From: Akkermansia muciniphila
GTDB lineage: Bacteria > Verrucomicrobiota > Verrucomicrobiia > Opitutales > UBA953
Direction: 5' to 3'
Length of the DNA stretch: 64,000 nucleotides
Assembly (NCBI GenBank): GCA_943331445.1
Contig: CALQLO010000001.1
Location: 1-64,000 of the forward strand
This document shows positions 15,506 through 39,984 of the stretch, one piece after another. The notes below the pieces were generated by a model that did not search any database, was not told where the DNA came from, and worked only from the letters and a program-made list of their open reading frames with translations. The position numbers and the translations under genes were made by a program. Position 1 is the stretch's first letter, and each line of letters opens with the position of its first letter.

Positions 15506-16843
15506 ATGTCTGATATCAGAACGCTCCCCGGTTTCCGGGAGTTTTATCCCGAGGACCGCGCTGTCCTGGGTCATGTCATGGATGTGTGGCGGCGAGCCTG
15601 CCGACGTTATGGTTTCCGTGAATGGGAGTCACCGGTGCTCGAGCCCCTTGAGCTTTTCACGGAGAAGTCAGGCGAGGAGATCGTCCGGCAGCTTTTTAAT
15701 TTTGAAGATAAGGGTGGCCGAAAGGTCAGCCTGCGTCCCGAGATGACGCCGTCCTTAGCTCGCATGGTTGGGGCCAAGGCTAATGGGATGCCGAAGCCGA
15801 TTCGGTGGTTCGCCATCGGTGAAAATTACCGCTACGAGAAGCCGCAGAAGGGACGTCTCCGTGCATTCTACCAATTGAACGCCGACTTGCTTGGTGAAGC
15901 CGGTCCGGCCGCAGACGCTGAGATTATCGCCCTCTGTGCCGACTGTCTTATAGGCTTTGGGCTCACTCAGGCTGATTTCCGGATTCGCATTTCTGACCGC
16001 ACGCTCTGGTTTCGCTATCTTGGCAGTCTGGGTATTCCGGAAGCACAGGCGACCGCAGTGCTCGGTGTCGTCGATAAACTTGAACGTGGCACCCCCAAGG
16101 ACCTCCTTGACGCCATGACGGCCGCGTTAGTCGGTACATCGGTTGATCCGCTCCAAGCGCTCGAGTCTGCCCGCTCTTTTGCGAACACGAAATCCCTAGC
16201 AGACTTGGAGAAAATTGCAGTCGGCGATGAAGCCATGACGCTACGCCTCGCTGAATGGAAGCAATTGCTCGGTACGCTCCAGGCGATGGGTTTCTCCGAA
16301 TGTGTGGCCATCGACCTTACCATCGTTCGTGGCCTCGCCTATTATACTGGCTTCGTGTTCGAGGCATTCGAGACAGGGGGCGAAGCTCGTGCCCTGGCGG
16401 GTGGCGGTCGCTATGATGCGTTGGTGAAGAAACTCGGTGGCCCAGATCTCCCTGCCGTCGGCTTCGGGATGGGTGACGTCACCCTCCGCGATTTGCTGGA
16501 TTCGAAGAAGTTGATCCCAGCCTATGCCGATGGTCCGGATTTCTACGTTATGATTCTCGGGGATGACGCCCGGAATGCCGCCTTGGAAGACTTGGCCAAT
16601 CTGCGCCGCGCCGGCTTTCGCGTGGAATATAATCTTAAGGACGGTAAGTTTCCCAAACTTATCCAGGCCGCGGAAATCGCGGGTGCCAAGTATACCCTTA
16701 TTTATGGTGGCACGGAGGTGGCGAAGGGTGTCGCCAAGGTGCGCAGCCTGCAGGATCGCGCCGAGGCCGAGGTGCCTCGGACGGATTTAGTTCCTGCCTT
16801 GCGGGCGGTGCTGGAGGAAGGGATGCGGGCCATTCAGCCCTGA
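15506..16843 (+). CDS. hisS: Histidyl-tRNA synthetase
   Basis: A class II aminoacyl-tRNA synthetase of 445 residues. Motif 1 lies near RRYGFREWESPVLEP, motif 2 is ENYRYEKPQKGRLRAFYQLNAD, and the HisRS-specific loops are LRPEMTPSLARM and RGLAYYTGFVFEAF. Motif 3 is GGGRYDALV...PAVGFGMGDV. The C-terminal anticodon-binding domain is present (AALEDLANLRRAGFRVEY). The insertion between the motifs is longer than in the E. coli enzyme and contains the HisRS-type helical region. murJ begins 6 bp after its stop. Confidence 0.97.
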   Translation: MSDIRTLPGFREFYPEDRAVLGHVMDVWRRACRRYGFREWESPVLEPLELFTEKSGEEIVRQLFNFEDKGGRKVSLRPEMTPSLARMVGAKANGMPKPIRWFAIGENYRYEKPQKGRLRAFYQLNADLLGEAGPAADAEIIALCADCLIGFGLTQADFRIRISDRTLWFRYLGSLGIPEAQATAVLGVVDKLERGTPKDLLDAMTAALVGTSVDPLQALESARSFANTKSLADLEKIAVGDEAMTLRLAEWKQLLGTLQAMGFSECVAIDLTIVRGLAYYTGFVFEAFETGGEARALAGGGRYDALVKKLGGPDLPAVGFGMGDVTLRDLLDSKKLIPAYADGPDFYVMILGDDARNAALEDLANLRRAGFRVEYNLKDGKFPKLIQAAEIAGAKYTLIYGGTEVAKGVAKVRSLQDRAEAEVPRTDLVPALRAVLEEGMRAIQP

Positions 16844-16849
16844 TCGACG

Positions 16850-18436
16850 ATGAGCGAGCAGACGCGCCAGTACGGGGATATGGCGAAGACCGCCTCCTGG
16901 ACGATGGTTTCGCGAGTGCTCGGGCTGGTGCGTGATCAGCTCACTGCCGCCGTCTTCGGCGCTGGTCCGGTCGGAGCCGCTTTTCTCTTCGCTTTTCAAA
17001 TTCCGAATCTCTTCCGCCGTTTACTCGGTGAAGGCGCCCTCACGGTGGCGATTGTGCCAGTGCTCGCCGATAAGACGGCGAGGGAAGGGAAGGCCTCCGC
17101 GTTTGCTTTCCTCAATTATGTCATCCGCCGGGCGCTCCCTTGGATGATGGGGATTACCTTACTCGGCATGGGTATCGCCATTGCGTGGTCTTATCTCGCC
17201 ATGGATTATTCTAAGGCGAGTCGGGCAGCGGAACTGACGGCCTATTGCATGCCGTACATGCCGTTAATCTGCCTGGCGGCGCTTTTTACCTCCGCCGTTA
17301 ATCTGAGCGGGCGCTTCGGTTTGGCAGAGTTCGCCTCAGCGATGCTCAACCTATGCATGATTTTCGCCCTGGCGGTCTTGGGGGAAAACTTTGCGTCCGG
17401 TGACATGGGCAAGGCGCGCTGGCTTTGCGCCGGGGCGATTGCTGGAGGCGTTTTACAGTTATTAATCCCTCTTTGGGGTCTGCGCCAAGAAGGGTGGCGC
17501 CCTCGTCCTGCGATTGCCGATAAAGCCGCCTGGGGCGTTCTGTTGGCCGCTTTTATACCCGCGGCTCTTGGCGCAGGGATTCAGCAGATAAACTTCCTCG
17601 TCTCACGTTTTCTGGCTTTCGGGGTCTCGGATGCGTCCCTGACTTATTACTATATCGCCAATCGGATTGTCGAACTTCCCATTGGTCTATTTTCGGCTTC
17701 GATCGCGACGGTGATGTTCCCGGCGATGGCGACCGCTTTCGCGGCTCGAGACGAAGCGGCGCTTTCCCGGAACTATGCCCGTGGTATGCGGCTGATTATC
17801 GCGGTAAACATCGCTGCGGCTGTGGGACTCATTGTCCTTTCGGGTCCGATTGTTCAGCTGCTTTTTAAATTCCAAAAATTCACAGAGGTTGATTGCGAAC
17901 ACACCCGAATCGTCTTGGCGTTATTTGCCTTCGTCATGCCGTTTTACGCTATGATCTCAATGGTGACGCGTGCGCTCAATGTGGCGGGTAACACCAAGGC
18001 CACTTTCAGGGCGGCCGTCCATGCTTTCGGGGTCAATCTCGTGGCCTCGCTGATTGCCGTCTGGATGGGCTGGGGTATCGAGGGGCTCGCGGTCGCGAAT
18101 GGGATTTCCACCGTCTGGCAGTATCTAGTACTTCGCCGCTTGCTGCAACGTAGTGCGCCCGCTTTCTTGGGTGAAAACCTGCTCATCCCCACGCTGAAGG
18201 TGCTGGTCGGATCGGCGGCGTTGGGTCTTGTGGCTTATCAGGGTTTTGCCATCTTGCATGACTTCAAGGGGGCATGGCTTCACCCCAAGCTTAGCCTGTT
18301 CTTGGCCATGCTCGTGGCCGCATCGGTTTCCGCCGCGCTCTATGCCTGGATTCTCTGCGTCTGGGGTTACCCGGAGAAAGATTTAGTCCTTTCTTATCGG
18401 GATAAATTACTCCGACTATTGCGACTCCGTCGCTGA
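16850..18436 (+). CDS. murJ: Lipid II flippase MurJ (MviN family)
   Basis: A polytopic membrane protein of the MOP exporter superfamily that flips the peptidoglycan precursor lipid II to the periplasm. It has 528 residues and about 14 membrane helices. The N-terminus matches the family closely: ASWTMVSRVLGLVRDQLTAAVFG, then FQIPNLFRRLLGEGALTVAIVPV. It also has the ADKAAWGVLLAAFIPAALG region with QINFLVSR. It lies 6 bp after hisS and 20 bp before the Pls-like synthetase gene, so it is probably in the same transcript. Confidence 0.96.
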   Translation: MSEQTRQYGDMAKTASWTMVSRVLGLVRDQLTAAVFGAGPVGAAFLFAFQIPNLFRRLLGEGALTVAIVPVLADKTAREGKASAFAFLNYVIRRALPWMMGITLLGMGIAIAWSYLAMDYSKASRAAELTAYCMPYMPLICLAALFTSAVNLSGRFGLAEFASAMLNLCMIFALAVLGENFASGDMGKARWLCAGAIAGGVLQLLIPLWGLRQEGWRPRPAIADKAAWGVLLAAFIPAALGAGIQQINFLVSRFLAFGVSDASLTYYYIANRIVELPIGLFSASIATVMFPAMATAFAARDEAALSRNYARGMRLIIAVNIAAAVGLIVLSGPIVQLLFKFQKFTEVDCEHTRIVLALFAFVMPFYAMISMVTRALNVAGNTKATFRAAVHAFGVNLVASLIAVWMGWGIEGLAVANGISTVWQYLVLRRLLQRSAPAFLGENLLIPTLKVLVGSAALGLVAYQGFAILHDFKGAWLHPKLSLFLAMLVAASVSAALYAWILCVWGYPEKDLVLSYRDKLLRLLRLRR

Positions 18437-18456
18437 GGCGGGGCTAAAGCGGTTAT

Positions 18457-21400
18457 ATGATTCTGCAGGGTGCCCATAGACCTGATTTACTCCGCCATGA
18501 GACGTTGGCTGACTTGCTTGCAGATACGGTGCGACGTCAGCCGGACGCCTTAGCTATCGTGGATGGTTCGATACGTCTTTCCTACAGTGAGCTTTGGTTG
18601 CGCTCCCGTAAGGTCGCTCATGCTTTAGCTTCTCGCGGGTGTGGCCCGGGAGCGTGCGTGGGTTTATGGTTACCACGTGGGCACGCTTTGATCCTCGGCC
18701 AGGCCGGTATCGCCTTGTCTGGGGCCGCTTGGTTACCTTTTGACGCCGCTGTGCCGCTTGATCGCCTTGCGACGTGCATGCGTGATGCCCGTGCGCATTA
18801 CGTCTTAACCGACCATGAAGGCGCGAAAGGTATCCGAGCTCGAGGTCTGGAGCCGCTGGTTCTGGCGGAGCTGGAGGGGGAGAATCTGCAGGTTGAACTA
18901 CGTCGTGCGGCACCCGGTGACATGGCCTATGTGATTTATACTTCGGGTTCCACGGGAGAACCGAAGGGCATCGCGATCACCCAGCGTAATGTCTGCCATT
19001 TCATTCGCAGTGAGAATGACGTCCTGGGGGTCACGGCAGCCGATCGCGTCTACCAGGGTTTTTCGGTCGCGTTTGATATGTCACTGGAGGAAATTTGGAT
19101 CTCCTTTTTCGCCGGGGCGAGTCTCTGGGTGGCACCCGCAGAAATCGTGGCGGACCCGGATGCGCTTCAGGATGCGCTGCTGAAGCAGGAAATAACGGTA
19201 TTGCACGCCGTGCCGACGTTGGCTGCGTTGATCACGAATTTCCCCCCAAGCCTTCGCTTGCTGAATCTGGGAGGCGAAGCCTGTCCGGACTCTCTGGCGA
19301 CGAGGTTAACGGGACATTGGTACCGGGTTTTTAATACCTATGGGCCAACCGAGACGACGGTGACAGCCTCCATCGCCATTCTTCAGCCCGGCAAGTCGGT
19401 TAATATCGGTATCCCGCTGCCGAATTACGGTATCGGGGTCTGCACCCCCGAGCGTCGGTTATTGGCAGTAGGTGAAACGGGAGAACTGGTTGTGTTTGGG
19501 CCTGGCGTTTCGGGTGGTTATCTTGGCCGGCCCGAGCTGACCGCAGCCCGATTCGTGGAAATAGCTGGCCAGCCAGCCTACCTCACGGGAGATCTGGGAA
19601 GTGTCGGCCCCGACGGTGAAGTTCGCTGTTTGGGTCGAGTTGATAATCAAATCAAGTTGAGAGGTTTCCGCATCGAGCTCGACGAAATCACCGCTGCCTT
19701 GAGTGATCAGCCTGGGGTCGGTACGGCCGCCGCCGTCGTCCGGCCGCTCGCCGGGAGCGATGAAATCGTCGCCTTCGTGGTTTTGTCTTCGGGGGCGGCG
19801 AATGCAGAATCGCTGCGCGCGGCACTGATGGCGCGACTGCCAACTTACATGGTGCCAGCAAGATTCGTGTTCATTGAGGAGATGCCGCGGCTGAGTTCTG
19901 GGAAGACGGACCTTGGCGCGTTGCGCCGTCGTGAATTGGCGGTGAATGTTGCTAGCTCCGAAGCGTTGCCTCCGCCTCGCGATGAGCATGAGACCGCCTT
20001 GCGCGTCATCTTGTGCGAATTACTTCCGGGTCGCCACCTGTCGCCATCGGCCGATTTCTTCGCCGACCTCGGTGGGCATTCGTTACTCGCTGCTCGGCTG
20101 GTGACGAGGCTTCGTCGCGATGCCCGCTATGCGGCTGTCGGCGTCCAGCATATCTATCGAGGTCGTTCGCTGCAGGCCATTGCCCTGGCCATGCGTGAGC
20201 TAGCGGAGGCTGGTCGAACGGCTGAGGCCGCACCCCATCATGAGTCGGCACCGTTATGGCGACGTTTTGCTTGTGGCTTTGCTCAGGCCAGTTGTCTGCC
20301 GTTCCTTGTACTGCTCCAGATGCTGCAATGGCTTTCACCATTCTTTGCCTATCACTGGCTGACGGGTGACCCGGAGGATAGTGCTTTTTTTGCAATCATC
20401 GTCGCACTTGGTGCATACCTAGTCGCGTTAGCGCTTTCGTTTCCGCTGGGGGTTTTCTTGCGTCTACTCCTGGTCGGGCGACTGCGACCCGGCAGCTATC
20501 CGCTCTGGGGGCTCACCTATTTCCGCTGGTGGCTAGGCGTTCGCCTCGCGGAGATTCCTGCGGTCCATCTTATTTCCGGCACGCCTTTAAAATCTTTTCA
20601 TCTCCGGATGCAAGGTGCCAAGGTCGGCCGACATTGTACGATTAATTCGGTCACCGCCTCGGTTCCCGAACTGCTCGTCGTCGGTGACGGGGTCTGCTTG
20701 GGTACGTTCGTTAACATTGAGAACGCGCGGGTCGAGGGGGGCCGCCTGATCATTGGGCGCGTGGCGATTGGAGATGGCGCATCTGTCGACTCGTATTCCG
20801 TGTTAGAGAATGACACCAAAATCGGAGCCGGCGGAAAACTTGGTGGTCAATCGGCCTTGGCCGAAGGGGTGTCTATCCCCGCCGGCGAAGTCTGGGCTGG
20901 GGCGCCAGCCCGCAAGACAGGTACGGCCACAAGGCTTACGCCCCCGCCGGGGCTGGGAGTTTGGTCCGCAGGTCTACGTATCCTTGGATTCGTTATCGGT
21001 GCGGCGCTGGTCGCGGTGCTGTTTTACATCCCCGTATTCCCAAGTTTCGTCGTTATTGATGCACTCGATACGCGCTGGTTAGACGTGTTTGAAAACTTCG
21101 AGCATTGGTGGCTAGCCTTACCAATATTTTTCCTGCTCGCGATTCCTGCTACGGCGATCTTGTTACTCATCACGGTCGGATTGGCCGGTCTACTTCGCCG
21201 ATGTCTGCCCCGCCAGCAGGCTGGCCGCTTTCCCATTGAGGGCCGCGAATATTTCTGGAAGTGGCAGCTTTCGGCTGTCCTGGATGCATCCCTGCAGGTC
21301 CTGCATGGTCTGTATGCTTCGGTTTATGTCGCCACGTGGTTACGCATCATGGGAACAAAGGTCGGTCGTGATGCGGAGGTTTCGACAGCGGAAGGGATTA

Positions 21401-22395
21401 TTCCTGAACTGTTAGAGTTGGGTGATGAGTCGTTTATCGCGGACGGCGCCATGCTTGGGGACGAAGGTCAGCAAGACGGCTGGATGACCTTGAGCCGGAC
21501 TCGTATCGGCGCTCGTTCCTTTGTGGGGAACGGAGCGTACGTGCCCGATGGGGCGCAGTTTCCCGATGATGTCTTGTTGGGTGTGCAATCCTCCGCGCCT
21601 CAAAATGAACAGATGCGTCCTGGGCAGACATGGATGGGTTCGCCCCCCATTTTGTTACCAGCGCGAGAAGTCATCGCGGAACAGGATCCGGCGCTGACCT
21701 TTCGCCCATCGCGGAGTCGCCGTTGGGCGCGAGCCTTCATCGAAGGCTTGCGGATTGTTGTCCCGCTAGCGTTTGTCATTGCGGCGGGCTATGTGACCGT
21801 CTTCGAAACCATGCCCTACCTGGAGGAGGAGAATTGGCCCGAGTTTTGCCTAGCCTTGACGATTGCCGGCATGCTTTACGGACTGATTTCCTTTGGCCTA
21901 GTGCTCGTCGCCAAGTGGATTCTTATCGGTAAGTATCGTCCGAGGTTAGCCCCGATGTGGACGCTTTTTGTCTGGGTTAGCGAGGCAGTGACCACGTTAC
22001 ATGAATCTTTGGCTGTACCGGCACTCCTTAATTTGCTCAAGGGTACGCCGATGTTGCCATGGGCTTTCCGGCTCTTGGGCGTCAAGGTGGGCAAGGGTGT
22101 TTGGATGAATTCGACGGACCTTACGGAATTCGACTGCGTGAGTATCGGCGACGAAGCTGAACTGAATGATCACAGCGGACCGCAGACACATTTATTCGAG
22201 GATCGGGTGATGCGTATCGGTTTGGTCCGGATTGGAACTCGCTGTACGATTGGCGTCCGCACAACCGTGCTTTATGATGCTTCGGTTGGCGATGGGGCTC
22301 ACCTTGGGCCGCTGACCCTAGTCGCGAAGGGTGAGCATATTCCTGAAAACACCCGCTGGGAAGGGACTCCCTCTGCTCCGGCTGCACGCGGATGA
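18457..22395 (+). CDS. Pls/PosA-type membrane non-ribosomal peptide synthetase
   Basis: The protein has 1312 residues. Residues about 1-500 form an adenylation domain with YTSGSTGEPKG, the A4 segment FDMSLEEIW, YGPTETT, YLTGDLG, GFRIELDEI and the catalytic lysine in LSSGKTDLGAL. A carrier domain follows, with the phosphopantetheine serine in DLGGHSLLAARL (about 538). There is no canonical condensation (HHxxxDG) or thioesterase domain. Instead there are three repeats of a membrane-helix pair plus a left-handed beta-helix soluble domain (about 600-830, 840-1065 and 1095-1305). This layout and length match epsilon-poly-L-lysine synthetase (Pls) and PosA, where the tandem soluble domains join amino acids and the membrane part surrounds or exports the chain. 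The overlapping downstream gene is a phosphopantetheinyl transferase. The monomer is unknown. Confidence 0.9.
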   Translation: MILQGAHRPDLLRHETLADLLADTVRRQPDALAIVDGSIRLSYSELWLRSRKVAHALASRGCGPGACVGLWLPRGHALILGQAGIALSGAAWLPFDAAVPLDRLATCMRDARAHYVLTDHEGAKGIRARGLEPLVLAELEGENLQVELRRAAPGDMAYVIYTSGSTGEPKGIAITQRNVCHFIRSENDVLGVTAADRVYQGFSVAFDMSLEEIWISFFAGASLWVAPAEIVADPDALQDALLKQEITVLHAVPTLAALITNFPPSLRLLNLGGEACPDSLATRLTGHWYRVFNTYGPTETTVTASIAILQPGKSVNIGIPLPNYGIGVCTPERRLLAVGETGELVVFGPGVSGGYLGRPELTAARFVEIAGQPAYLTGDLGSVGPDGEVRCLGRVDNQIKLRGFRIELDEITAALSDQPGVGTAAAVVRPLAGSDEIVAFVVLSSGAANAESLRAALMARLPTYMVPARFVFIEEMPRLSSGKTDLGALRRRELAVNVASSEALPPPRDEHETALRVILCELLPGRHLSPSADFFADLGGHSLLAARLVTRLRRDARYAAVGVQHIYRGRSLQAIALAMRELAEAGRTAEAAPHHESAPLWRRFACGFAQASCLPFLVLLQMLQWLSPFFAYHWLTGDPEDSAFFAIIVALGAYLVALALSFPLGVFLRLLLVGRLRPGSYPLWGLTYFRWWLGVRLAEIPAVHLISGTPLKSFHLRMQGAKVGRHCTINSVTASVPELLVVGDGVCLGTFVNIENARVEGGRLIIGRVAIGDGASVDSYSVLENDTKIGAGGKLGGQSALAEGVSIPAGEVWAGAPARKTGTATRLTPPPGLGVWSAGLRILGFVIGAALVAVLFYIPVFPSFVVIDALDTRWLDVFENFEHWWLALPIFFLLAIPATAILLLITVGLAGLLRRCLPRQQAGRFPIEGREYFWKWQLSAVLDASLQVLHGLYASVYVATWLRIMGTKVGRDAEVSTAEGIIPELLELGDESFIADGAMLGDEGQQDGWMTLSRTRIGARSFVGNGAYVPDGAQFPDDVLLGVQSSAPQNEQMRPGQTWMGSPPILLPAREVIAEQDPALTFRPSRSRRWARAFIEGLRIVVPLAFVIAAGYVTVFETMPYLEEENWPEFCLALTIAGMLYGLISFGLVLVAKWILIGKYRPRLAPMWTLFVWVSEAVTTLHESLAVPALLNLLKGTPMLPWAFRLLGVKVGKGVWMNSTDLTEFDCVSIGDEAELNDHSGPQTHLFEDRVMRIGLVRIGTRCTIGVRTTVLYDASVGDGAHLGPLTLVAKGEHIPENTRWEGTPSAPAARG

Positions 22396-22919
22396 TGAAG
22401 GTGCTGACACCCGAGGAGGCCTCGAACTTGAAGGCTGAGCCGATAGATAATATCTGGCTCTTGCAGGTCCCGTCCGTCGGGCGCGGCGCAGGCTCGAAGC
22501 TGGCATTGCGCAGAGCCGTCCTGACCGTGGCCAGGGGTTGGCATGGTGGTGCGGTGGCGATTATCGAATCTGCACTTGGTCCGGAATTGCTCGGCGCCCC
22601 TTGGCGGGTTTCGTTTTCCTACGATGGGTGCGATGGTTGGGTGGCATGGTCACGCATTGGCCGTATCGGAATCGACGCCGAGAGGATTCGTTTCATCCCC
22701 GAGGCCCGTGAATTGACGCAGCAATATCTATCCGGGACCGCTGCCGATGACTTGATGGATCTCGATGCTTCAATCCAATTCACCCGTCGCTGGACGGAGA
22801 TGGAGGCGTCGCATAAAGCCCGCGGGGGGGTGCTGGGCGAAAAACATCCTACAGCCAACGTCCCGCTCACGATTTGTCACCACCGGCACCAGGATGTCAT
22901 TGTCACCGTGGCACAGTAG
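22392..22919 (+). CDS. 4'-phosphopantetheinyl transferase-like protein
   Basis: The protein has 175 residues and overlaps the synthetase stop by 4 bp. The two family motifs are visible: GRIGIDAERI (Mg-binding Asp and Glu region) at about 93-102 and FTRRWTEMEASHKARGG (the W-x-x-x-E-A-x-x-K signature) at about 136-152. The lysine usual before EA is methionine here. Family members attach phosphopantetheine from CoA to carrier-protein serines; its natural target is the carrier domain encoded just upstream. It is shorter than Sfp-type enzymes (about 220-240 residues), mainly at the N-terminus. Confidence 0.85.
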   Translation: MMKVLTPEEASNLKAEPIDNIWLLQVPSVGRGAGSKLALRRAVLTVARGWHGGAVAIIESALGPELLGAPWRVSFSYDGCDGWVAWSRIGRIGIDAERIRFIPEARELTQQYLSGTAADDLMDLDASIQFTRRWTEMEASHKARGGVLGEKHPTANVPLTICHHRHQDVIVTVAQ

Positions 22920-22928
22920 GGCGCCTGA

Positions 22929-23813
22929 TTAGACTTTGGGGAGGCGGGCCCGGCGGAGTTCTTCCGATCGATAACGCCGAACCAGGGCGCGGAGGATCGC
23001 GACGGTTTCGGAGTCAGCCACGCCCGTGATCTTGGCGGAACGGAAATGACGCTGAAAGGCTTCGAGGCCGAGTTTCAGGCCGGGTTCACCAGCTTCAAGG
23101 TGGTAGCCGTATAACTCTAGAAGTTTTCTGACATCCACGGCGTTCGGGGTTTTGCTTTTCGTCAAGTTCGCTTTCACTTCGTCGGGTAGCGGCCAGGCCC
23201 CGATACCCAAGGCGGCTAATTTGGCCCAAGGAAAGAGCGAGCCCGGATCGATTTTACGTCCGACGGCGATATCTGAATGGCCGAGGACGTTCACGGGCTT
23301 GATGTCATGGCGGCGAATGATGTCGGCGCAGAGCGTGAACAGGACTTCGGCCTGAGCAGCGGAGTATGGATGAACATTTCCGTCGAGATTGATGATTTCA
23401 ATTCCTACCGATCGTTGATTGAGGGCGTTCAGTTCAGCCCATCCGCTTTTGCCGGCGTGGAAAGCGGACATGTTTTCAGGGACCATCCGGATGACCCTCG
23501 GGGTGGCTTCATCCGTGACCACATAATGAATGCCAACCTTATGAGCATGATCCTTGCCTTGGAGGATATCTAGAGACGAGGGCAGGGTGCCTGCAGTATA
23601 GTGAAGGATTAAGTGGGTGACCTTTTCCTTGCGGGGTTCGGCCCCCAGGGAGCTCGGGCCTTGTTCAATGGTTAGTCCCGTAAATTTGCTAACCAGGGCT
23701 GCAGGCGCCGTAGGTTTGCTGGGATTCGGGCTCGTTGCGCAGCTGCAAAGGAAAAGCGCCAAAAACAAGGGAACGCACAAACGCACGGAATATGACCATA
23801 TGGGGTTGTTCAT
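22929..23813 (-). CDS. Lipoprotein N-acetylmuramoyl-L-alanine amidase (AmiD-like)
   Basis: The protein has about 294 residues. A lipoprotein signal peptide with lipobox LCSC (LFLALFLCSCATS) suggests outer-membrane anchoring. The Amidase_2 domain shows zinc-ligand and catalytic segments HLILHYTAG, HYVVTDE, NQRSVGIEIINLDG and GHSDIAVGRKIDPG. A C-terminal helical region (about 225-285: LLELYGYHLEAGEPGLKLGLEAFQRHF) resembles a PG_binding_1 domain. Predicted role: cleaving the bond between MurNAc and L-alanine in muropeptides during recycling. ATG at 23813 is preferred over GTG at 23816. It converges with the phosphopantetheinyl transferase gene. Confidence 0.93.
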   Translation of the reverse strand: MNNPIWSYSVRLCVPLFLALFLCSCATSPNPSKPTAPAALVSKFTGLTIEQGPSSLGAEPRKEKVTHLILHYTAGTLPSSLDILQGKDHAHKVGIHYVVTDEATPRVIRMVPENMSAFHAGKSGWAELNALNQRSVGIEIINLDGNVHPYSAAQAEVLFTLCADIIRRHDIKPVNVLGHSDIAVGRKIDPGSLFPWAKLAALGIGAWPLPDEVKANLTKSKTPNAVDVRKLLELYGYHLEAGEPGLKLGLEAFQRHFRSAKITGVADSETVAILRALVRRYRSEELRRARLPKV

Positions 23814-23913
23814 CACTGTAGGGTTGAATACTTAGTTTATTCCACGATTTGCCCCAAGATAATACGGTTTAAATGTATAAAGGGCTGTGTTTATTGGTTA
23901 ATTACTAACTAGA

Positions 23914-24033: not shown

Positions 24034-24813
24034 ATGAAAGTCGCCCGACACATCATTGAAGCCCGCCGTGAGGCGATTGCCAAATTACTCTCTAAGGTCG
24101 GATACGTACCCGTCCTGGAAATCTGTAAGCAGTTCAACGTCTCGGAGGCCACGGCCCGTCGTGATTTGACGGAGCTGGAGAATCAGCGACGCATCACGCG
24201 TACCCACGGAGGCGCTCTCTCTGACTTCAATCGCAACTTTCCGCCGCTCGATGATCGTAAAATCGAAGATGCTGAAGCCAAGCGACGCATTGGCAACATG
24301 GCCGCCTCCCGCGTTAAGGCTGGCATGACCGTCTACCTGGATTCGGGCTCCACGATTTTCTTCGCCGCTGAAGCGATTGCCTCTGCCGGAGTCCCCGATT
24401 TACAGATTGTCACGACCTGTCTGCCGACGGCGCAGCTGATTTCCTGTCTCCCTGGGGTTGAAGTATATATTCCCGGTGGGCTGTTTCTGACGCGCCACGC
24501 AATGGTCGCCGGCGACCGTACGCTGGAGGAAGTTGCCCGCTGGAATTTTGACGTCGCCCTGCTCGGGGCTGAAGGCATCGACGAGAACGGCCTTTGGAAT
24601 TCGCAACGCGATATCTCCCATCAGCAACGCGAAGTGATTCGGCGGTCGGACGAAGTTTTAATCTGCATGAATAAGGTTAAGCTTGGTCGCGGTGGCCCTT
24701 GTGCCGTTACGCGTGATGTCAGCGCACTCTTTTTGGTCACCGATGCGGATGCGGCCGCGGTGCAGAAAGCCAAGGTAAAGCTGCCCGCGGAACGCGTTTT
24801 GACAGCTCTCTGA
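24034..24813 (+). CDS. DeoR-family transcriptional regulator
   Basis: The protein has 259 residues. The N-terminal winged helix-turn-helix contains VLEICKQFNVSEATARRDL and the DeoR signature around RITRTHGGAL. The C-terminal DeoR sensor domain (about 75-240) has YLDSGSTIFFAAEAI and the LLGAEGIDENGLWN segment typical of phosphosugar-binding regulators. It is the first gene of a cluster for L-fucose/L-rhamnose-type sugars, so its effector is plausibly fuculose- or rhamnulose-1-phosphate. It may act at the inverted repeat at 23920-23939. Confidence 0.94.
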   Translation: MKVARHIIEARREAIAKLLSKVGYVPVLEICKQFNVSEATARRDLTELENQRRITRTHGGALSDFNRNFPPLDDRKIEDAEAKRRIGNMAASRVKAGMTVYLDSGSTIFFAAEAIASAGVPDLQIVTTCLPTAQLISCLPGVEVYIPGGLFLTRHAMVAGDRTLEEVARWNFDVALLGAEGIDENGLWNSQRDISHQQREVIRRSDEVLICMNKVKLGRGGPCAVTRDVSALFLVTDADAAAVQKAKVKLPAERVLTAL

Positions 24814-24816
24814 GCG

Positions 24817-26442
24817 TTGTTCTGTTTGCCTGTGAAGAACCGAACCGTCTATCTTGTGGCGAACGGCGACTTGCGCGCCTCGGCCAATCAAAAGTGCGAA
24901 GCTGCTCAATTAGCCATGGAGGCCCTGCTCGCCCAGGCTTTACGTCGTGAAGGCTGGAAGGTGAAGCGCGCCCATGGTTTTCGTGCCGAGGTCGGGCATG
25001 GTTTTATCGATTCGCAGAAATACGGCATCGAGGTCTTTCGCGGCATTCCCACAGATGCCCCCTTGGTGGTCGCTGAAGCGGTTTGGCAATACTCCCATCA
25101 TGTCTTGCCCGGCTTGTTTTCACATCGTGGCCCGATCCTCACCGTCGCCAACTGGTCCGGAACTTGGCCCGGACTCGTTGGCATGCTTAATCTCAATGGC
25201 TCCTTGCTTAAAGCAGGCATTAATTTCTCCACGCTTTGGAGCGAGGATTTCACCGACGATAAGTTCCGGATCGGTCTTCGGAAGTGGCTGATGTCGGGGC
25301 TGGTGACTCATGCTGTATCGCACGTACGTAAGCTCCGGCCATCTTCATCTAAGGACGCCCTTCTCGGCCGCCGTTTCGCCCAGGACTTCCGTCGCCGTAA
25401 GGCCATCATGGGCGTCTTTGATGAAGGCTGCATGGGCATGTACAATGCCATCATCCCCGATGAGATTCTGCATCCGACGGGTGTTTTTAAAGAGCGATTG
25501 AGTCAATCAAGCTTGTTTGCCGCGATGCTCACGGTGAAGCCGGCCGAAGCCACGGTTGCCTTGCGCTGGCTTCTTCGTAAGGGTCTCACCTTTGCTTGGG
25601 GGAAGAACGAAAAAACTGAACTGACCCGACGGCAGACATTGGAGCAACTGAAGATGTATATTGCCGCGGTGCGTCTGGCGGATGAATTCGGCTGTGCGAC
25701 CATCGGAATTCAATACCAGCAAGGGCTTAAGGATCTCGCCCCGGCCTCTGACTTGGTCGAGGGTTTGCTTAACAATCGTGAGCGCCCGCCGGTTTTCCAC
25801 GCTAAGACCGGCAAGGAACTCTTTAAAGGCGACGCCCTCCCCCACTTCAATGAAGTCGATGAATGTGCCGGTCTCGACGGCTTAATTACCTACCAACTTT
25901 GGAAGCAACTGGGCTTCGACCCGGAGAACACGCTGCATGATTTGCGCTGGGGTCGGCAGTATCAGGGGCTATCTGGTCGCCGGGTCATTGATGAGTACGT
26001 TTGGGTCTTATTGATTTCCGGCGCGGCGCCCGCTCAGCATTTCATCGGTGGCTATAGGGGTGCCCGTTCGGAGCGCCAACCTCCAATGTATTTCCGACTC
26101 GGCGGTGGCACGCTCAAAGGCGTCTCCAAGCCCGGCTGGATTGTCTGGTCACGTATTTTCGTGAAGGATGGTCAACTGCATGCCGATCTTGGCCTCGGTG
26201 AAGTGGTGGAACTCCCCAAGGCGGAGACTGAAGAACGCTGGAAACTCACAACGTCCCAGTGGCCGATCATGCATGTTGTGCTTCCCGGCATATCCCGGGA
26301 TCAGATGATGGCTCGTCACCCTTCTAATCATATTCAAGTCGTGTATGCGCCTTCCCGTTCCGCGGCCCAACGTGGCCTCACAGCTAAGGCCGCCGCGTTG
26401 GCTGAACTCGGCCTGAACGTCTCTCTTTGCGGAGAAATCTAA
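24817..26442 (+). CDS. L-fucose/L-arabinose isomerase-family protein
   Basis: The protein has up to 541 residues. It shows the general pattern of the fucose isomerase family: N-terminal sugar-isomerase domains, then the metal-site region ([13 protein letters not shown]) and a C-terminal domain with [22 protein letters not shown] and [17 protein letters not shown]. It probably converts an aldose to a ketose (L-fucose to L-fuculose or L-rhamnose to L-rhamnulose). No separate RhaA-type isomerase lies nearby, so it may serve both sugars. The start is uncertain: TTG at 24817 or GTG at 24832. No ATG is available near the N-terminus. It follows the regulator by 3 bp. Confidence 0.8.
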
Positions 26443-26444
26443 CC

Positions 26445-27200
26445 ATGTCCGCCGAAGTCATCCAAGGCTTGCTCGAGCTTTCCCATCAATTAGGAGGTGA
26501 CCGTCTACGCATGGCCATCTTGGGGGAAGGCAACACGTCCGTCCGACTCGATGCCGATACGTTTGCGGTCAAGGCTTCGGGGTCGAATCTTGCGAGCCTG
26601 CGTCCGGGTGACGTGACTACCTGCCGTTTCGATCGCTTATTACCTTTGATTGAATCCACGAGCGCGACGGATGCCGAAGTGGATGCCGCATTGTTTGCTG
26701 CTCGGGTCGATGGACAGGCCAAGAAGCCCTCGATCGAGGCTTTGTTTCACGCCTATCTACTTACGCTACCTGGGGTGGCTTGCGTCGGGCACGTCCATGC
26801 CATCGCCGTTAATCAGATTCTTTGTTCCCCGCGGGCCCGTGAGTTTGCCGAACGGCGAGCTTGTCCTGATGAGATTGTGATGTGCGGTATTGAGTCCGTT
26901 TTTGTACCCTATGCCGATCCTGGGCTGGGTCTGTCTCAAGGCATCCGCCAGGAAGTCTTGGCTTTTGTGAAGCGTACGGGTCGTGACCCAAAAATTATCC
27001 TCCTTCAGAACCACGGCATCATTGCGGTGGGTCCATCCCCGAAGGCTGTGCTCGGCTCCCTCTTGATGGCCGAAAAAGCCGCGGAGATTTTCATCGGTGC
27101 CGCCGCCTTGGGTGGCCCGCTGTTTCTGACCGCGGCCCAGTGCGAGCGTATCGCTGGCCGCCCGGATGAGCATTACCGACAAAAAATGCTTGGATTATAA
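26445..27200 (+). CDS. Class II (zinc) aldolase/adducin-family protein, probable sugar-phosphate aldolase
   Basis: The protein has 252 residues from the ATG at 26445, 2 bp after the isomerase stop. Class II aldolase landmarks: GEGNTSVRL (phosphate site), FHAYLL, the zinc histidines in GHVHAIAVNQ, and LQNHGIIAVG. FucA-type L-fuculose-1-phosphate aldolases are about 215 residues; this one is slightly longer. It would cleave ketose-1-phosphate to dihydroxyacetone phosphate and L-lactaldehyde. A second aldolase is fused to a dehydrogenase two genes downstream, so the two may differ in substrate (fuculose- versus rhamnulose-phosphate). That division is inference. Confidence 0.85.
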   Translation: MSAEVIQGLLELSHQLGGDRLRMAILGEGNTSVRLDADTFAVKASGSNLASLRPGDVTTCRFDRLLPLIESTSATDAEVDAALFAARVDGQAKKPSIEALFHAYLLTLPGVACVGHVHAIAVNQILCSPRAREFAERRACPDEIVMCGIESVFVPYADPGLGLSQGIRQEVLAFVKRTGRDPKIILLQNHGIIAVGPSPKAVLGSLLMAEKAAEIFIGAAALGGPLFLTAAQCERIAGRPDEHYRQKMLGL

Positions 27201-27227
27201 CCCGCTCGTCCTCCCCTCTCTGATTAT

Positions 27228-28697
27228 ATGTCCCATTATCTCGCCATCGACCTCGGAGCTGAATCCGGACGCGTCATTCTCGGCACCCTGAAGTCAGGTA
27301 AGTTCAGTATGAAGGAAGTGCATCGCTTCTCTAATGGTGCCATCACGGCCAATGGTACGCTGCGCTGGGATATCATCCGCATCTTTCGTGAAATCCGGAT
27401 TGGCCTAGCGAAGGGTGCCAAGCTTGGGCCGATCAAGTCCGTGGCCTGTGATTCATGGGGCGTCGACTACGTACTCCTGAAGGGAGACGGCCCGTTGCTG
27501 TCCTTGCCGTTCACCTATCGCGACGAACGCAGTTTCAAGTCCTACGAACTGGCTATGCGTCGTTTCTCTCAAAAAGAGATTTTCGATGGGACAGGTATTG
27601 CCTCGATTTCCATCAACACGCTCTACCAGCTTTTCGATGACGCCCTGAATCGTCCGGAAATGTTGAAATTCGCCGATAAATTTCTCCTCATCGGTGACTA
27701 CATTACTTGGTTGCTTACGGGGAAAGCACGAGCGGAAGAGACGTTGATTTCCGGAAGTCAGTGTTGGGACACGCGCAAGCGTGCGTGGGCCTTGCCGGTA
27801 TTAAAGAAGCTGGGCATCCCTAAGCATATCTTGCCGAAGCCAGTCGCACCCGGCGTGAAGCTTGGGAAGATGCTCCCTTATCTGGCCAAGGAAACGGGCC
27901 TCGGTAAGACGGAAGTGGTCACGACCTGCGCCCACGACACGGCTGCCGCCGTCGCCGCCGTGCCGGCCACCAAGGGAGATGATTGGGCTTACCTGTCGTC
28001 AGGAACTTGGTCACTGCTCGGCGTTGAGCTACCGAAGCCGCTCGTGAACGAGACGGTGCGCAAGGCCAAGTATACCAATGAAGTCGGTTTCGGGGGCACG
28101 TCTCGCTTCCTGAAGAATCTCGTTGGCCTCTGGGTGCTCCAAGAGTGCCGTCGGGAGTGGATGGAAAAAGGGGAAGTCTCCGATTATGGCGAGATCGTTA
28201 AGCTGGCACTTAAGGCTCCGACGCTACGCTCCTTCATCCGTCCGGATGATATTCGCTTTGCCAAGCGCGGCGACATGGTGGCCAAGGTTCAAGCCTTCTG
28301 CCGCGAGACCAAGCAGCCAATTCCGAAGACCCACGGGGAAATCGCCCGCTGCGTACTCGAATCTCTTGCCCTGCTTTACCGTGTCGAGATGGACGGCATG
28401 GAGAAGTTGACTGGCCGTAAGTTGAAGCGCTTGCATATCGTCGGCGGTGGTTGCCGAAATGCGCTCCTCAATCAGGCGACCGCCGATGCCACCGGGCGAA
28501 TCGTTATCGCTGGACCTGTTGAGGCCACCGCCGCGGGCAATATCTTAGTCCAAGCTATTGCTATGAAGGAGCTCAAGAACCTCGACGAACTGCGCAAGGT
28601 TGTCCGAAACTCTTTTGAGGTAGTGACTTACAAGCCGAACGTCACGGCCGCCTGGGCTTCCGCCCAATCCAAGTTTAATGGTTTAAAGAAGTCATAA
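27228..28697 (+). CDS. FGGY-family carbohydrate kinase (rhamnulokinase-like)
   Basis: The protein has 489 residues. The first actin-like domain opens with YLAIDLGAESGRVILG, the glycine- and aspartate-rich phosphate loop typical of RhaB. Other landmarks are SVACDSWGVDYVLL, YRDERS, WLLTGKARAEET, the catalytic Asp region CAHDTAAAVAAVP, YLSSGTWSLLGVEL, and HIVGGGCRNALLNQATADATG near the C-terminus. The pattern matches rhamnulokinase more closely than xylulokinase. It phosphorylates the ketose at C1 with ATP. It lies between the two aldolase genes. Confidence 0.93.
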   Translation: MSHYLAIDLGAESGRVILGTLKSGKFSMKEVHRFSNGAITANGTLRWDIIRIFREIRIGLAKGAKLGPIKSVACDSWGVDYVLLKGDGPLLSLPFTYRDERSFKSYELAMRRFSQKEIFDGTGIASISINTLYQLFDDALNRPEMLKFADKFLLIGDYITWLLTGKARAEETLISGSQCWDTRKRAWALPVLKKLGIPKHILPKPVAPGVKLGKMLPYLAKETGLGKTEVVTTCAHDTAAAVAAVPATKGDDWAYLSSGTWSLLGVELPKPLVNETVRKAKYTNEVGFGGTSRFLKNLVGLWVLQECRREWMEKGEVSDYGEIVKLALKAPTLRSFIRPDDIRFAKRGDMVAKVQAFCRETKQPIPKTHGEIARCVLESLALLYRVEMDGMEKLTGRKLKRLHIVGGGCRNALLNQATADATGRIVIAGPVEATAAGNILVQAIAMKELKNLDELRKVVRNSFEVVTYKPNVTAAWASAQSKFNGLKKS

Positions 28698-28736
28698 AAC
28701 CCCTTACTCAACACCCCACTCTTCCACGTAACACCT

Positions 28737-30929
28737 ATGTCCTCCTATAAGTACGTCTCTCATCTCTGGAACGATGCCGAAGCCGCGAAGCTCGATCCGG
28801 TTGGCCGTCTGGTCTACCGCTCGAACAAGCTCGGTGCCGATCAGCGCATTACCAATACCGGCGGTGGCAATACCTCCTCGAAGATTGTGGAGAAAGATCC
28901 TCTGACGGGCGCCGAAACCCAGGTCCTCTGGGTCAAGGGTTCTGGTGGCGATCTCCGGACGAGCAATCGCGAGAATTTTTCCTCCCTCTATCAGGATAAG
29001 CTCATCGGTCTGCAGAAGTCCTACGCCGCTCGCGCCGACAAGGGTCTCAAGTCGCAGGCCGAAGATGACATGGTCGGCATGTATAACCACGCCACTTTTA
29101 ATCTGAATCCGCGTGCATCCTCCATCGACACCCCTCTGCACAGCTTCCTGACAGGTAAGCACGTCGACCACATGCACCCGAACGCGATTATCTCAATCGC
29201 TGCTTCCAAGAACTGCGAAGCCCTCACCCAGCAGATTTTCGCAGGTAAGATGGCCTACGTGAAGTGGATGCGCCCGGGTTTTGAGCTCGGCCTCGCCATG
29301 CAGGAGATCGCCGGCAAGCAGCCCGACATCAAGGCTATCATGATGGGCCAGCATGGGTTCATTTCTTGGGCAGATGATGATAAGGCCTGCTACGAGCTCA
29401 CGCTGGCGATGATCGAGCAGGCTTCGGCCTATATCGATGCTAAGTACCAAGCCAAGGGTGGTGATGCCAAGGCCTTTGGCGGTGCCCTTTACCAGACCCT
29501 CGATGCGGAGAAGCGCCATGCGGCCTTCGCCGCTATCTTGCCTTGGCTGCGTGGTCAGGTCTCCCTTGAGAAGCGTTTCATCGGTACGATCCAAGATGAC
29601 GAAAAGATTCTCCGCTTCGTCAATTCGAAGGACGCTCCTCGTCTGGCCGAGCTTGGCACCTCCTGCCCGGACCACTTCCTCCGCACGAAGATCAAGCCCC
29701 TCTACGTGAACTGGAACCCCCAGTCCGAAGACACCGCCGCACTGAAGACCAAGCTCGCCGCCGCCCTTGAGCAGTACCGCAAGGACTACGCCGCTTACTA
29801 TAACGCCTGCAAGCGAGCCAACTCTCCGGCCATGCGCGACCCGAATCCGACGGTCGTCCTTATTCCTGGCCTCGGCATGATTGCCTGGGGCAAGGATAAG
29901 TCCGAATCTCGCGTTACCGCTGAGTTCTATAACTGTGCCGTCGAAGTCATGCGTGGAGCCGAGGCGATTGACCAGTATATCGCCCTCCCCCAGCAGGAAG
30001 CGTTCGACATCGAATATTGGCTGCTCGAAGAGGCTAAGCTGAAGCGCATGCCAGCCGAGAAGGAACTGGCCCGCCAGATTATCATCGTCGTCGGCGCCGG
30101 CTCAGGCATCGGCAAGGAAACCGCCCATCGTCTGGTTAAAGAAGGCGCCCACATCGTCTGCGTCGACAAGAACGTCGAGGCCGCCCAGGCCACGGCGAAG
30201 GAAATTACCGACAAGCTCGGGACGGGTATCGGCGTCGCTGGTACCGGCCTCTCCAACTGCGGTCCGGCCATCGGTCTTTCGGGTGACATCATGGATCGTA
30301 ATTCCATCCGTAAGATGCTTGACCAGGTCGCCCTCGCTTATGGTGGTTTCGACTCCATTTGTGTGACCGCGGGTATCTTTGTCTCCCCCGATACTACTGG
30401 GCATATCCCGGATGATAAGTGGGCGCTCACCTTCGCACTCAATGTGACGGGTAGCTATCTCGTCGCTGATGAGGCTTTCAAGACCTGGAAGGAGCAAGGT
30501 TTGCGGGGTAATCTCGTGCTGACGACCAGCGCCAATGCTGCCGTCGCCAAGAAGGGCTCCGTCGCCTACGACACCTCGAAGGCTGCCGCCAATCACCTCG
30601 TGCGCGAGATGGCGATGGAACTCTCGCCCCTTATTCGCGTCAACGGCGTGGCTCCGGCCACCGTCGTCCAAGGGTCGGCGATGTTCCCTCGTGACCGAGT
30701 GATCGCCTCGCTTGCTAAGTACGGCATTCCTTACACCGATGATGAGGCGACCGATTCACTGACCACGAAGCTTTCCCGCTTCTACGCCGATCGCACGCTA
30801 ACGAAGAATCCCATCACTCCCGCCGACCAAGCCGAAGCTTACTTCCTTCTCGTGACTAATCGCTTAAGCAAGACGACCGGACAGGTTATCACCGTTGACG
30901 GTGGTTTGCACGAGGCGTTCCTGCGCTAA
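28737..30929 (+). CDS. Bifunctional ketose-1-phosphate aldolase / short-chain dehydrogenase
   Basis: The protein has 730 residues and matches the RhaEW-type fusion of rhamnose pathways. Residues about 1-430 are a class II aldolase with TGGGNTSSK, the zinc histidines in DHMHPNAIISIA and MMGQHGFISW. Residues about 440-730 are an SDR with IVVGAGSGIGKE, a catalytic serine region TSANAAVAKKG, and Y-x-x-x-K in YDTSKAAAN. The fusion is expected to split rhamnulose-1-phosphate into DHAP and L-lactaldehyde and to oxidise the lactaldehyde to L-lactate with NAD. The LutABC genes that follow would consume the lactate. Codon use is strongly biased toward GC-ending codons, suggesting high expression. Confidence 0.95.
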   Translation: MSSYKYVSHLWNDAEAAKLDPVGRLVYRSNKLGADQRITNTGGGNTSSKIVEKDPLTGAETQVLWVKGSGGDLRTSNRENFSSLYQDKLIGLQKSYAARADKGLKSQAEDDMVGMYNHATFNLNPRASSIDTPLHSFLTGKHVDHMHPNAIISIAASKNCEALTQQIFAGKMAYVKWMRPGFELGLAMQEIAGKQPDIKAIMMGQHGFISWADDDKACYELTLAMIEQASAYIDAKYQAKGGDAKAFGGALYQTLDAEKRHAAFAAILPWLRGQVSLEKRFIGTIQDDEKILRFVNSKDAPRLAELGTSCPDHFLRTKIKPLYVNWNPQSEDTAALKTKLAAALEQYRKDYAAYYNACKRANSPAMRDPNPTVVLIPGLGMIAWGKDKSESRVTAEFYNCAVEVMRGAEAIDQYIALPQQEAFDIEYWLLEEAKLKRMPAEKELARQIIIVVGAGSGIGKETAHRLVKEGAHIVCVDKNVEAAQATAKEITDKLGTGIGVAGTGLSNCGPAIGLSGDIMDRNSIRKMLDQVALAYGGFDSICVTAGIFVSPDTTGHIPDDKWALTFALNVTGSYLVADEAFKTWKEQGLRGNLVLTTSANAAVAKKGSVAYDTSKAAANHLVREMAMELSPLIRVNGVAPATVVQGSAMFPRDRVIASLAKYGIPYTDDEATDSLTTKLSRFYADRTLTKNPITPADQAEAYFLLVTNRLSKTTGQVITVDGGLHEAFLR

Positions 30930-33044: not shown

Positions 33045-33717
33045 CGCTCGGACTGATATCTTTGCCCGCATCCGGGAGGCCTTGAAGGTCAAGGCACCTA
33101 AGCCCCATCTTAAGGCTGAGACCTCTTCGCCGAATACTTCGGTCGCCGCCAAGCCATGGCTGCCAGATGGCGGGGAGACCGCCGAGGATAGTCTGCTGAT
33201 CCTCGCGGAACAGCTCGCCAAGCTCAAGGCGGTGCTTATCCGCGTGCCAGATCATGCCAGCGCGGCCAAAGCTTTCGCCGAACTTGCCACCACCAAGTCT
33301 TGGAAGAAAGTGGCCTATCATGGGCATGAGCTCACGCGCCCGCTCGCCGCCACCCTTACTTGCGAGGCCTGGGAGGCTGACGCCTCCTTCGATAAACAGA
33401 AGTTGGAGGGCAGCGACGCTGGCCTCACCACCTGCGAATCCATCGTCGCTCAGTTAGGTTCGATTCTCGTGTCCAGTCGGAGCTCAGGCGGGCGGGCCCT
33501 TTCCGTGCTACCTCACGTCCATGTCGTTATCGCCGAGGCTTCTCAGGTGGTCCCGGATCTCGGTGCTGCCTTGGCTTTGGTGAAGGCCCGCCATGGTACG
33601 GATATGCCCAGCATGCTTTCTTTCATCACCGGCCCTAGTCGTACCGGTGACATTGAACGGATTCTCGTTTTGGGAGCCCACGGGCCCAAGGAGCTATTTC
33701 TGATCCTGGTCGGTTGA
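33037..33717 (+). CDS. lutC: LutC: L-lactate utilisation LUD-domain protein
   Basis: The protein has 226 residues. The LUD domain includes GLTTCESIVAQLGSILVSS, HVHVVIAEASQVVPDL and a C-terminal ITGPSRTGDIERILVLGAHG, which is diagnostic for LutC. It is the last of three overlapping lut genes. The first approximately 50 residues are a charged, low-similarity linker. It completes the inferred lactate-to-pyruvate step of the deoxyhexose pathway. Confidence 0.96.
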   Translation: MSDARTDIFARIREALKVKAPKPHLKAETSSPNTSVAAKPWLPDGGETAEDSLLILAEQLAKLKAVLIRVPDHASAAKAFAELATTKSWKKVAYHGHELTRPLAATLTCEAWEADASFDKQKLEGSDAGLTTCESIVAQLGSILVSSRSSGGRALSVLPHVHVVIAEASQVVPDLGAALALVKARHGTDMPSMLSFITGPSRTGDIERILVLGAHGPKELFLILVG

Positions 33718-33722
33718 CTTCT

Positions 33723-39873: not shown

Positions 39874-39984
39874 ACCTAGGGTGCTTATCTGCCCTCAATG
39901 GGCCGCTACTAGAAGGCGAAATTACCAATTTTTTACAGTGAGGGTTTGACAGGGGGGTGCCATGCCTCAAACCAAACCTTTCGC

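Follow-up and report, generated by a model that had tools for sequence, protein, structure and literature searches.

A probable delta-poly-L-ornithine synthetase with an adjoining phosphopantetheinyl transferase gene in a freshwater Opitutae genome

Introduction

The described systems closest to the locus analyzed here include: (i) PosA of Acinetobacter baumannii (8G95-8G98), established by experiment as a delta-poly-L-ornithine synthetase (PMC10522769), (ii) Pls, the epsilon-poly-L-lysine synthetase of Streptomyces, which is of the same family and layout, (iii) Pls/PosA synthetases of proteobacteria (Pseudomonas, Comamonas, Rhodocyclales, Rhizobium and Sphingomonas), which are linked to a phosphopantetheinyl transferase (PPTase) gene in the same two-gene arrangement, the genes often overlapping or lying a few bases apart, and (iv) hexapeptide-repeat (left-handed beta-helix) acyltransferases, which are alike in fold to a single unit of the synthetase C-terminal domain. 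The Pls/PosA family is reported in many phyla (PMC10522769), and a genome scan recovered full-length relatives of the present synthetase at about 48-54% identity, many of them in Beta- and Gammaproteobacteria; the original prediction, which had the family as mainly actinobacterial and fungal, is out of date in this respect. No paper was found on a Pls/PosA member in Verrucomicrobiota, and the host group is absent from the main text of PMC10522769. The benefit of the polymers to their makers is called unclear in the abstract of PMC9606270.

The window, which is the whole 64,000-nucleotide stretch of DNA that was analyzed, comes from a lake bacterium with a genome of 2.4 Mb (83 contigs) that is 94.8% complete; absences from this genome are therefore provisional. 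The expectation of a Pls-type synthetase and a coupled PPTase in a Verrucomicrobiota genome is borne out. This polymer-making enzyme type is thereby placed in freshwater Opitutae, in a small two-gene system that occurs naturally and includes a PPTase of its own. Judged from sequence, the two genes would constitute a self-sufficient cassette whose product is a cationic isopeptide, delta-poly-L-ornithine being the most probable one (probability about 0.75).

Domain organization of the synthetase

The genes and domains of the locus are as follows:
16850..18436, forward strand: murJ (lipid II flippase; TIGR01695, 290.8 bits), flanks the insertion site on the left; not counted as part of the cassette
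18457..22395, forward strand: Pls/PosA-family synthetase, 1312 aa (open reading frame with ATG start; TIGR02353)
18520..19905, forward strand: adenylation domain, aa 22-483 (PF00501, 235.8 bits; PF13193, 35.8 bits)
19999..20121, forward strand: carrier (PP-binding) domain, aa 515-555 (PF00550, 25.5 bits, cut-off 20.8)
20284..22371, forward strand: C-terminal membrane domain, aa 610-1305, built of three units, each with two hydrophobic helices and one left-handed beta-helix
22183..22206, forward strand: QTHLFEDR motif, aa 1243-1250, with His1245, in the third unit; candidate catalytic site from row conservation
22392..22919, forward strand: Sfp-type PPTase, 175 aa (profile matches; motif residues)
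22929..23816, reverse strand: AmpD-like amidase gene (PF01510, 91.8 bits), flanks the insertion site on the right; not counted as part of the cassette

The terminal domain of the synthetase (aa 610-1305) scores 700.5 bits against TIGR02353 in the NCBIfam search (cut-off 423.1), and the protein is labeled 'Pls/PosA family non-ribosomal peptide synthetase'. Pfam domains include AMP-binding (aa 22-356), AMP-binding_C (410-483), PP-binding (515-555) and stretches of Hexapep; no condensation or thioesterase domain is matched in the synthetase by Pfam at E up to 0.1, as originally anticipated. The single adenylation domain has Asp (D207) and Glu (E211) at pocket positions 1 and 3, and the single carrier has its serine, Ser542 (codon 20080-20082), which is Ser in all 63 aligned rows. 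Thus, the Pls-type adenylation/carrier/three-fold layout proposed in the original prediction is confirmed by the TIGR02353 score, the Pfam domains and the profile matches between the C-terminal units. That prediction had named beforehand, as evidence against it, a lack of Pls/PosA similarity in the C-terminal part or a dead adenylation or carrier site; the similarity is present, and neither site looks dead from its residues. The synthetase is probably an intact, working member of the Pls/PosA family.

The closest records are from uncultured Opitutae metagenome bins, the best with 97% identity across the whole protein. PosA of A. baumannii has the same A-PCP-membrane domain layout and is alignable over the full length; an A. 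baumannii copy is 47.7% identical over the whole protein and 51.8% identical in the adenylation domain. The window's adenylation domain matches crystallized PosA (8g95) with 434.8 bits and the adenylation domain of Pls (7wew) with 249.7 bits.

Substrate pocket and likely product

The pocket residues, by alignment, are D207, M208, E211, H250, N270, G272, T294, V302, T303 and K483 (DMEHNGTVTK). Nine of the ten are identical to those of A. baumannii PosA (DMEHNGTVSK), with Thr303 in place of Ser313 as the sole change, and all ten are identical to those of Acinetobacter nosocomialis (L071), which has the same Thr. This Thr-for-Ser change is found in 16/63 rows, counting the window and A. nosocomialis, in a sample biased towards 'DM..E' pockets by DMSLEEIW, one of the six peptides used to fetch most of the compared loci; the A. 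baumannii copy (L152) has Ser. Seven copies from the genus of the window's genome (L137, L138, L140-L144), found via the terminal domain, read DMEHNG[T/S]VTK.

The roles of the pocket residues were assigned for PosA by Patel and Gulick, in whose account position 2 is Met in ornithine enzymes, Ala in lysine enzymes and Phe in those for shorter diamino acids, and S313A cost PosA 183-fold (PMC10522769). The window's Met208 differs from the Ala reported for Pls (PMC10522769). Hydroxyl residues are kept at the equivalents of both PosA T304 and S313 (T294 and T303). Ornithine carbamoyltransferase is encoded in the host genome. The likely product, from pocket and family, is a cationic isopeptide homopolymer, in line with the cationic homopolymer originally proposed. 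The further suggestion of a new polymer is not supported: because the pocket is one Ser-to-Thr change from PosA, with the same Thr in A. nosocomialis, delta-poly-L-ornithine is favored, the polymer known from A. baumannii (PMC10522769). The likely product of the cassette is already known, as is the enzyme type from other bacteria.

The best of the alternatives, yet an unlikely one, is a working synthetase of the same family that uses a different basic amino acid (L-lysine, D-ornithine, diaminobutyrate or an ornithine derivative) and hence makes a different or new polymer. PosA also accepts D-ornithine and, weakly, lysine (PMC10522769), and the replacement of Ser by Thr, seen across the whole verrucomicrobial clade, could reflect a shifted preference; however, Thr retains the hydroxyl, A. 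nosocomialis has the same residue, and Met at position 2 is the reported mark of ornithine (PMC10522769).

Other pockets occur among the compared loci. Two Pls-like proteins, L147 7185-11153 (from G521, which shares its class with the window's genome) and L159 2935-6954, have the pocket DSECYGGVTK, a code reported for a Bdellovibrionales enzyme active with arginine (PMC10522769); they are more likely than the window's synthetase to make something new. In L075, L078, L084 and L093, from Lentisphaerae, Opitutaceae and Planctomycetota records and one bin, the position-4 His is replaced and Val is changed to Ile (DMETNGTITK, DMENNGTITK and DMESNGTITK). On a Streptomyces plasmid (L157 7014-9600), a Pls-like gene overlaps a gene of the diaminobutyrate--2-oxoglutarate transaminase family, followed by aspartate kinase, an arrangement that points to a polymer of diaminobutyrate for which the locus itself would supply the precursor.

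Proposed mechanism

The PPTase is proposed to load phosphopantetheine onto Ser542. The adenylation domain would then activate L-ornithine, the substrate taken from PosA, and hand it over to the carrier; D207 would face the alpha-amine of the substrate, and E211, T294 and T303 would lie close to its delta-amine. By the chemistry of Pls and PosA, the membrane-bound C-terminal domain would do the work of a condensation domain by linking the units via the delta-amine, and a thioesterase would be unnecessary; the chains made are probably short. His1245, in the third beta-helix, may serve as general base, by analogy with the hexapeptide-repeat acyltransferases.

C-terminal domain and candidate catalytic histidine

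The three C-terminal units match one another in profile-profile comparison (E 2.8e-35, 6.7e-32 and 1.2e-20). Three pairs of hydrophobic stretches (aa 605-623 and 644-662, 842-860 and 887-917, 1093-1116 and 1133-1151) give six membrane helices and three soluble tandem domains, as judged from prediction and sequence only. A matching three-fold layout is described in the PosA models of Patel and Gulick (PMC10522769). The AlphaFold2 model of the last 715 aa, from a 59-sequence alignment without L090, L093, L095, L096 and L097, has a mean pLDDT of 90.7 and a pTM of 0.89. Among solved structures, Foldseek ranks a designed assembly and the maltose, serine and galactoside O-acetyltransferases highest (E from 1.1e-4). 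Each aligns over a part of the chain, the top rows at a query TM-score of 0.11-0.16; no solved chain covering the domain was found by sequence search. Compared to the hexapeptide-repeat acyltransferases (maltose and serine O-acetyltransferases, E about 1e-4), the synthetase has three units in one membrane-anchored chain, and its substrates would be carrier-bound amino acids rather than acyl-CoA.

Five residues (Q1243, H1245, D1249, R1250 and E1293) are invariant in 76/76 rows, which include alphaproteobacterial and actinobacterial members and, like the tree, exclude L072, L090, L095, L096 and L097. His1245 is the sole invariant one among the 11 histidines in the C-terminal part of the window's protein; the next two are kept in 59/76 and 54/76 rows. 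L147 and L159, which have the other pocket, read QAHTFEDR where the window has QTHLFEDR. Thus, His1245 is a candidate catalytic residue, and by analogy may act as the general base. Besides PMC10522769, no paper was found on a catalytic histidine or beta-helix in the Pls/PosA terminal domain. An invariant histidine in the third unit would offer a simple handle on amide-bond formation without a condensation domain. The three tandem domains were reportedly the subject of a mutational study by Kito et al. 2013; thus, the candidate histidine may already have been tested.

The partner PPTase

Sfp-type PPTases have a pattern of conserved D-x-E and W-x3-E-x3-K residues. The PPTase of the window, which is short (175 aa), has these residues (D95, E97, W134, E138 and K142), and its D, W, E and K positions are common to Sfp and AASDHPPT. 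The single sequence is borderline against PF01648 (24.7 bits alone, cut-off 25; 25.9 bits in the genome search) and is over no model's cut-off in NCBIfam. By comparison, a profile of 48 synthetase-adjacent PPTases matches Sfp (1qr0, 1.1e-10) and human AASDHPPT (2byd, 6.7e-12), and 45 of the 48 match PF01648 at E up to 0.01, leaving three without. G93, D95, W134, E138 and K142 are invariant in 54/54 linked PPTases, and Glu97, which the window's PPTase has, occurs in 7/54 linked relatives. On this profile and motif evidence, the second reading frame of the cassette is best read as a diverged Sfp-type PPTase. Its frame shares four bases (ATGA) with that of the synthetase, in agreement with the 4-bp overlap of the synthetase stop codon first noted.

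Values of pN/pS below 1 show purifying selection on the PPTase, with synonymous sites saturated in some pairs. Across four pairs that include the window, pN/pS is 0.52-0.62 for the PPTase versus 0.11-0.27 for the synthetase, 0.16-0.34 for murJ, 0.05-0.13 for hisS and 0.14-0.52 for the amidase gene; the sister-group PPTase gives 0.20-0.23 (two pairs). Within the lineage at the murJ site, PPTases are 36-47% identical between genomes with synthetases that are 71-86% identical. Fast evolution of the PPTase (47% where the synthetase has 86%) could reflect loose constraint too. In L137-L139 (e.g., L137 10830-11354), the D-x-E motif reads D-x-V.

On another reading, the synthetase is functional but its neighboring PPTase is in decay or acts on a different carrier. 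This reading draws on the borderline Pfam score, on the higher pN/pS of the PPTase in the same four pairs and on the 14 of 60 relatives that are without a linked PPTase. It is nevertheless improbable, given the five residues invariant across all linked PPTases, the intact frame in 14/14 genus copies and a host genome in which no other non-AcpS PPTase was found. The two PF01648 matches of this genome are AcpS (TIGR00516, 87.5 bits, cut-off 59.8) and the partner PPTase. Its three PP-binding matches are the synthetase and two small carriers, one of which adjoins a reading frame read by eye as a ketosynthase; no match to the condensation family PF00668 is found in the host genome.

Pairing of synthetase and PPTase across bacteria

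What is less familiar about the system is that the synthetase regularly comes paired with an activating enzyme of its own. Among the 60 loci with room, which exclude L097 (no full synthetase frame, though a PPTase is present) and L090 and L096 (contig ends), 46 have a PPTase-like reading frame beside the synthetase, by a profile built from neighbors in the fetched loci (seeds by motif, three rounds). It lies downstream in 45 and upstream on the opposite strand in one; the 14 without include Acinetobacter, Variovorax and Candidimonas. L098-L101, which are not of the Pls/PosA family, were left out of every synthetase comparison. A PPTase coupling peculiar to the window's genome was rejected on this count.

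The window differs from A. baumannii, which lacks a linked PPTase (PMC10522769) and whose locus L152 has no PPTase-like reading frame. The neighbors of Pls are likewise precursor or peptidase genes, not PPTase genes, in Streptomyces and Kitasatospora plasmid examples. Eight plasmid regions were compared: the PPTase profile matches in two (Rhizobium and Sphingomonas), both annotated as PPTase, and no match is found in those of A. baumannii, Azospirillum, Rhodococcus, two Streptomyces and Kitasatospora. Proteobacterial synthetases with a linked PPTase are about 48-51% identical to that of the window in Beta- and Gammaproteobacteria and 36-41% in Alphaproteobacteria, and the Rhizobium pocket reads DLEDIGTVVK.

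Across 54 pairs, the identities of synthetase and PPTase rise together (Spearman 0.82, against a maximum of 0.32 in 1000 permutations); common ancestry of the hosts accounts for part of this. A wider reading is tentative and somewhat less likely than its negation: synthetase and PPTase would be a unit portable between phyla, with a dedicated, fast-evolving, single-carrier PPTase; the unit would have entered the genus at least twice, at different sites, and a single histidine (QTHxxEDR), in the last of the three beta-helices, would form the amide bond. Most members of the PPTase lineage would, on this reading, have lost the second acidic residue of D-x-E. No published description of the pair across phyla was found in the open-licence literature, which is weak evidence of absence.

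Genomic site, distribution and transfer

The end of murJ is 20 bases from the synthetase start, and the amidase gene is on the other strand, facing the PPTase. TIGR02353 is matched over its cut-off in 14/55 genomes of the window's genus, in 6/273 genomes of the order sample (all six in this genus) and in 4/387 of the phylum sample, with a fifth just below. A count of 226/273 order genomes with some TIGR02353 match was rejected as a count of enzyme carriers, as matches other than the six are partial and weaker.

The PPTase adjoins the synthetase in 14/14 genus copies. Eight of the copies are between murJ and the amidase gene (that of G284 on two contigs), three are beside a DUF1501 gene, and three are on contigs too short to place the site. 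Among 24 murJ loci from a 31-genome sample, murJ is followed by the synthetase in four and by the amidase gene in 20; three of these 20 cassette-free loci are from genomes holding the other lineage. A murJ match is found in 29/31 genus genomes with or without the synthetase, in one place each except in G257 and G274 (two pieces), the G269 match being of only 28 aa; murJ was rejected as a dedicated exporter for this reason. The second lineage of the genus has synthetases 53-55% identical to that of the window, and the two lineages are not one clade (AU p 7.8e-6, with a quick tree and a group picked after tree inspection). Two gains fit best, with an old duplication followed by losses as the alternative. 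Lateral transfer probably brought in the cassette, which is now between murJ and the amidase gene. One genus with the same site both occupied and empty makes a comparison of genomes possible.

The least probable alternative, in which the synthetase adds basic amino acids to lipid or cell-wall material together with murJ and the amidase and makes no free polymer, would suit the neighbors of cell-wall metabolism and a membrane domain with acyltransferase-like beta-helices but is highly improbable, since murJ and the amidase gene adjoin without the synthetase in 20/24 murJ loci, the second lineage of the genus adjoins a DUF1501 gene instead, and relatives with a known product make free polymers.

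Other features of the window

Promoter and terminator sites over 16500-23200 number 1 and 7, compared to shuffle means of 2.8 and 10.1, and are not in excess. A 607-aa reading frame at 39946-41769 has no Pfam match at E 1e-10. At 24034-30929, a DeoR-type regulator, a class II aldolase, an FGGY sugar kinase and an aldolase/short-chain dehydrogenase fusion occur in a row, in what looks like a deoxysugar catabolism cluster; a 541-aa reading frame inside it (24817-26442) also has no Pfam match at E 1e-10. A 1112-aa reading frame at 33714-37052 has DUF7133 and HEAT matches.
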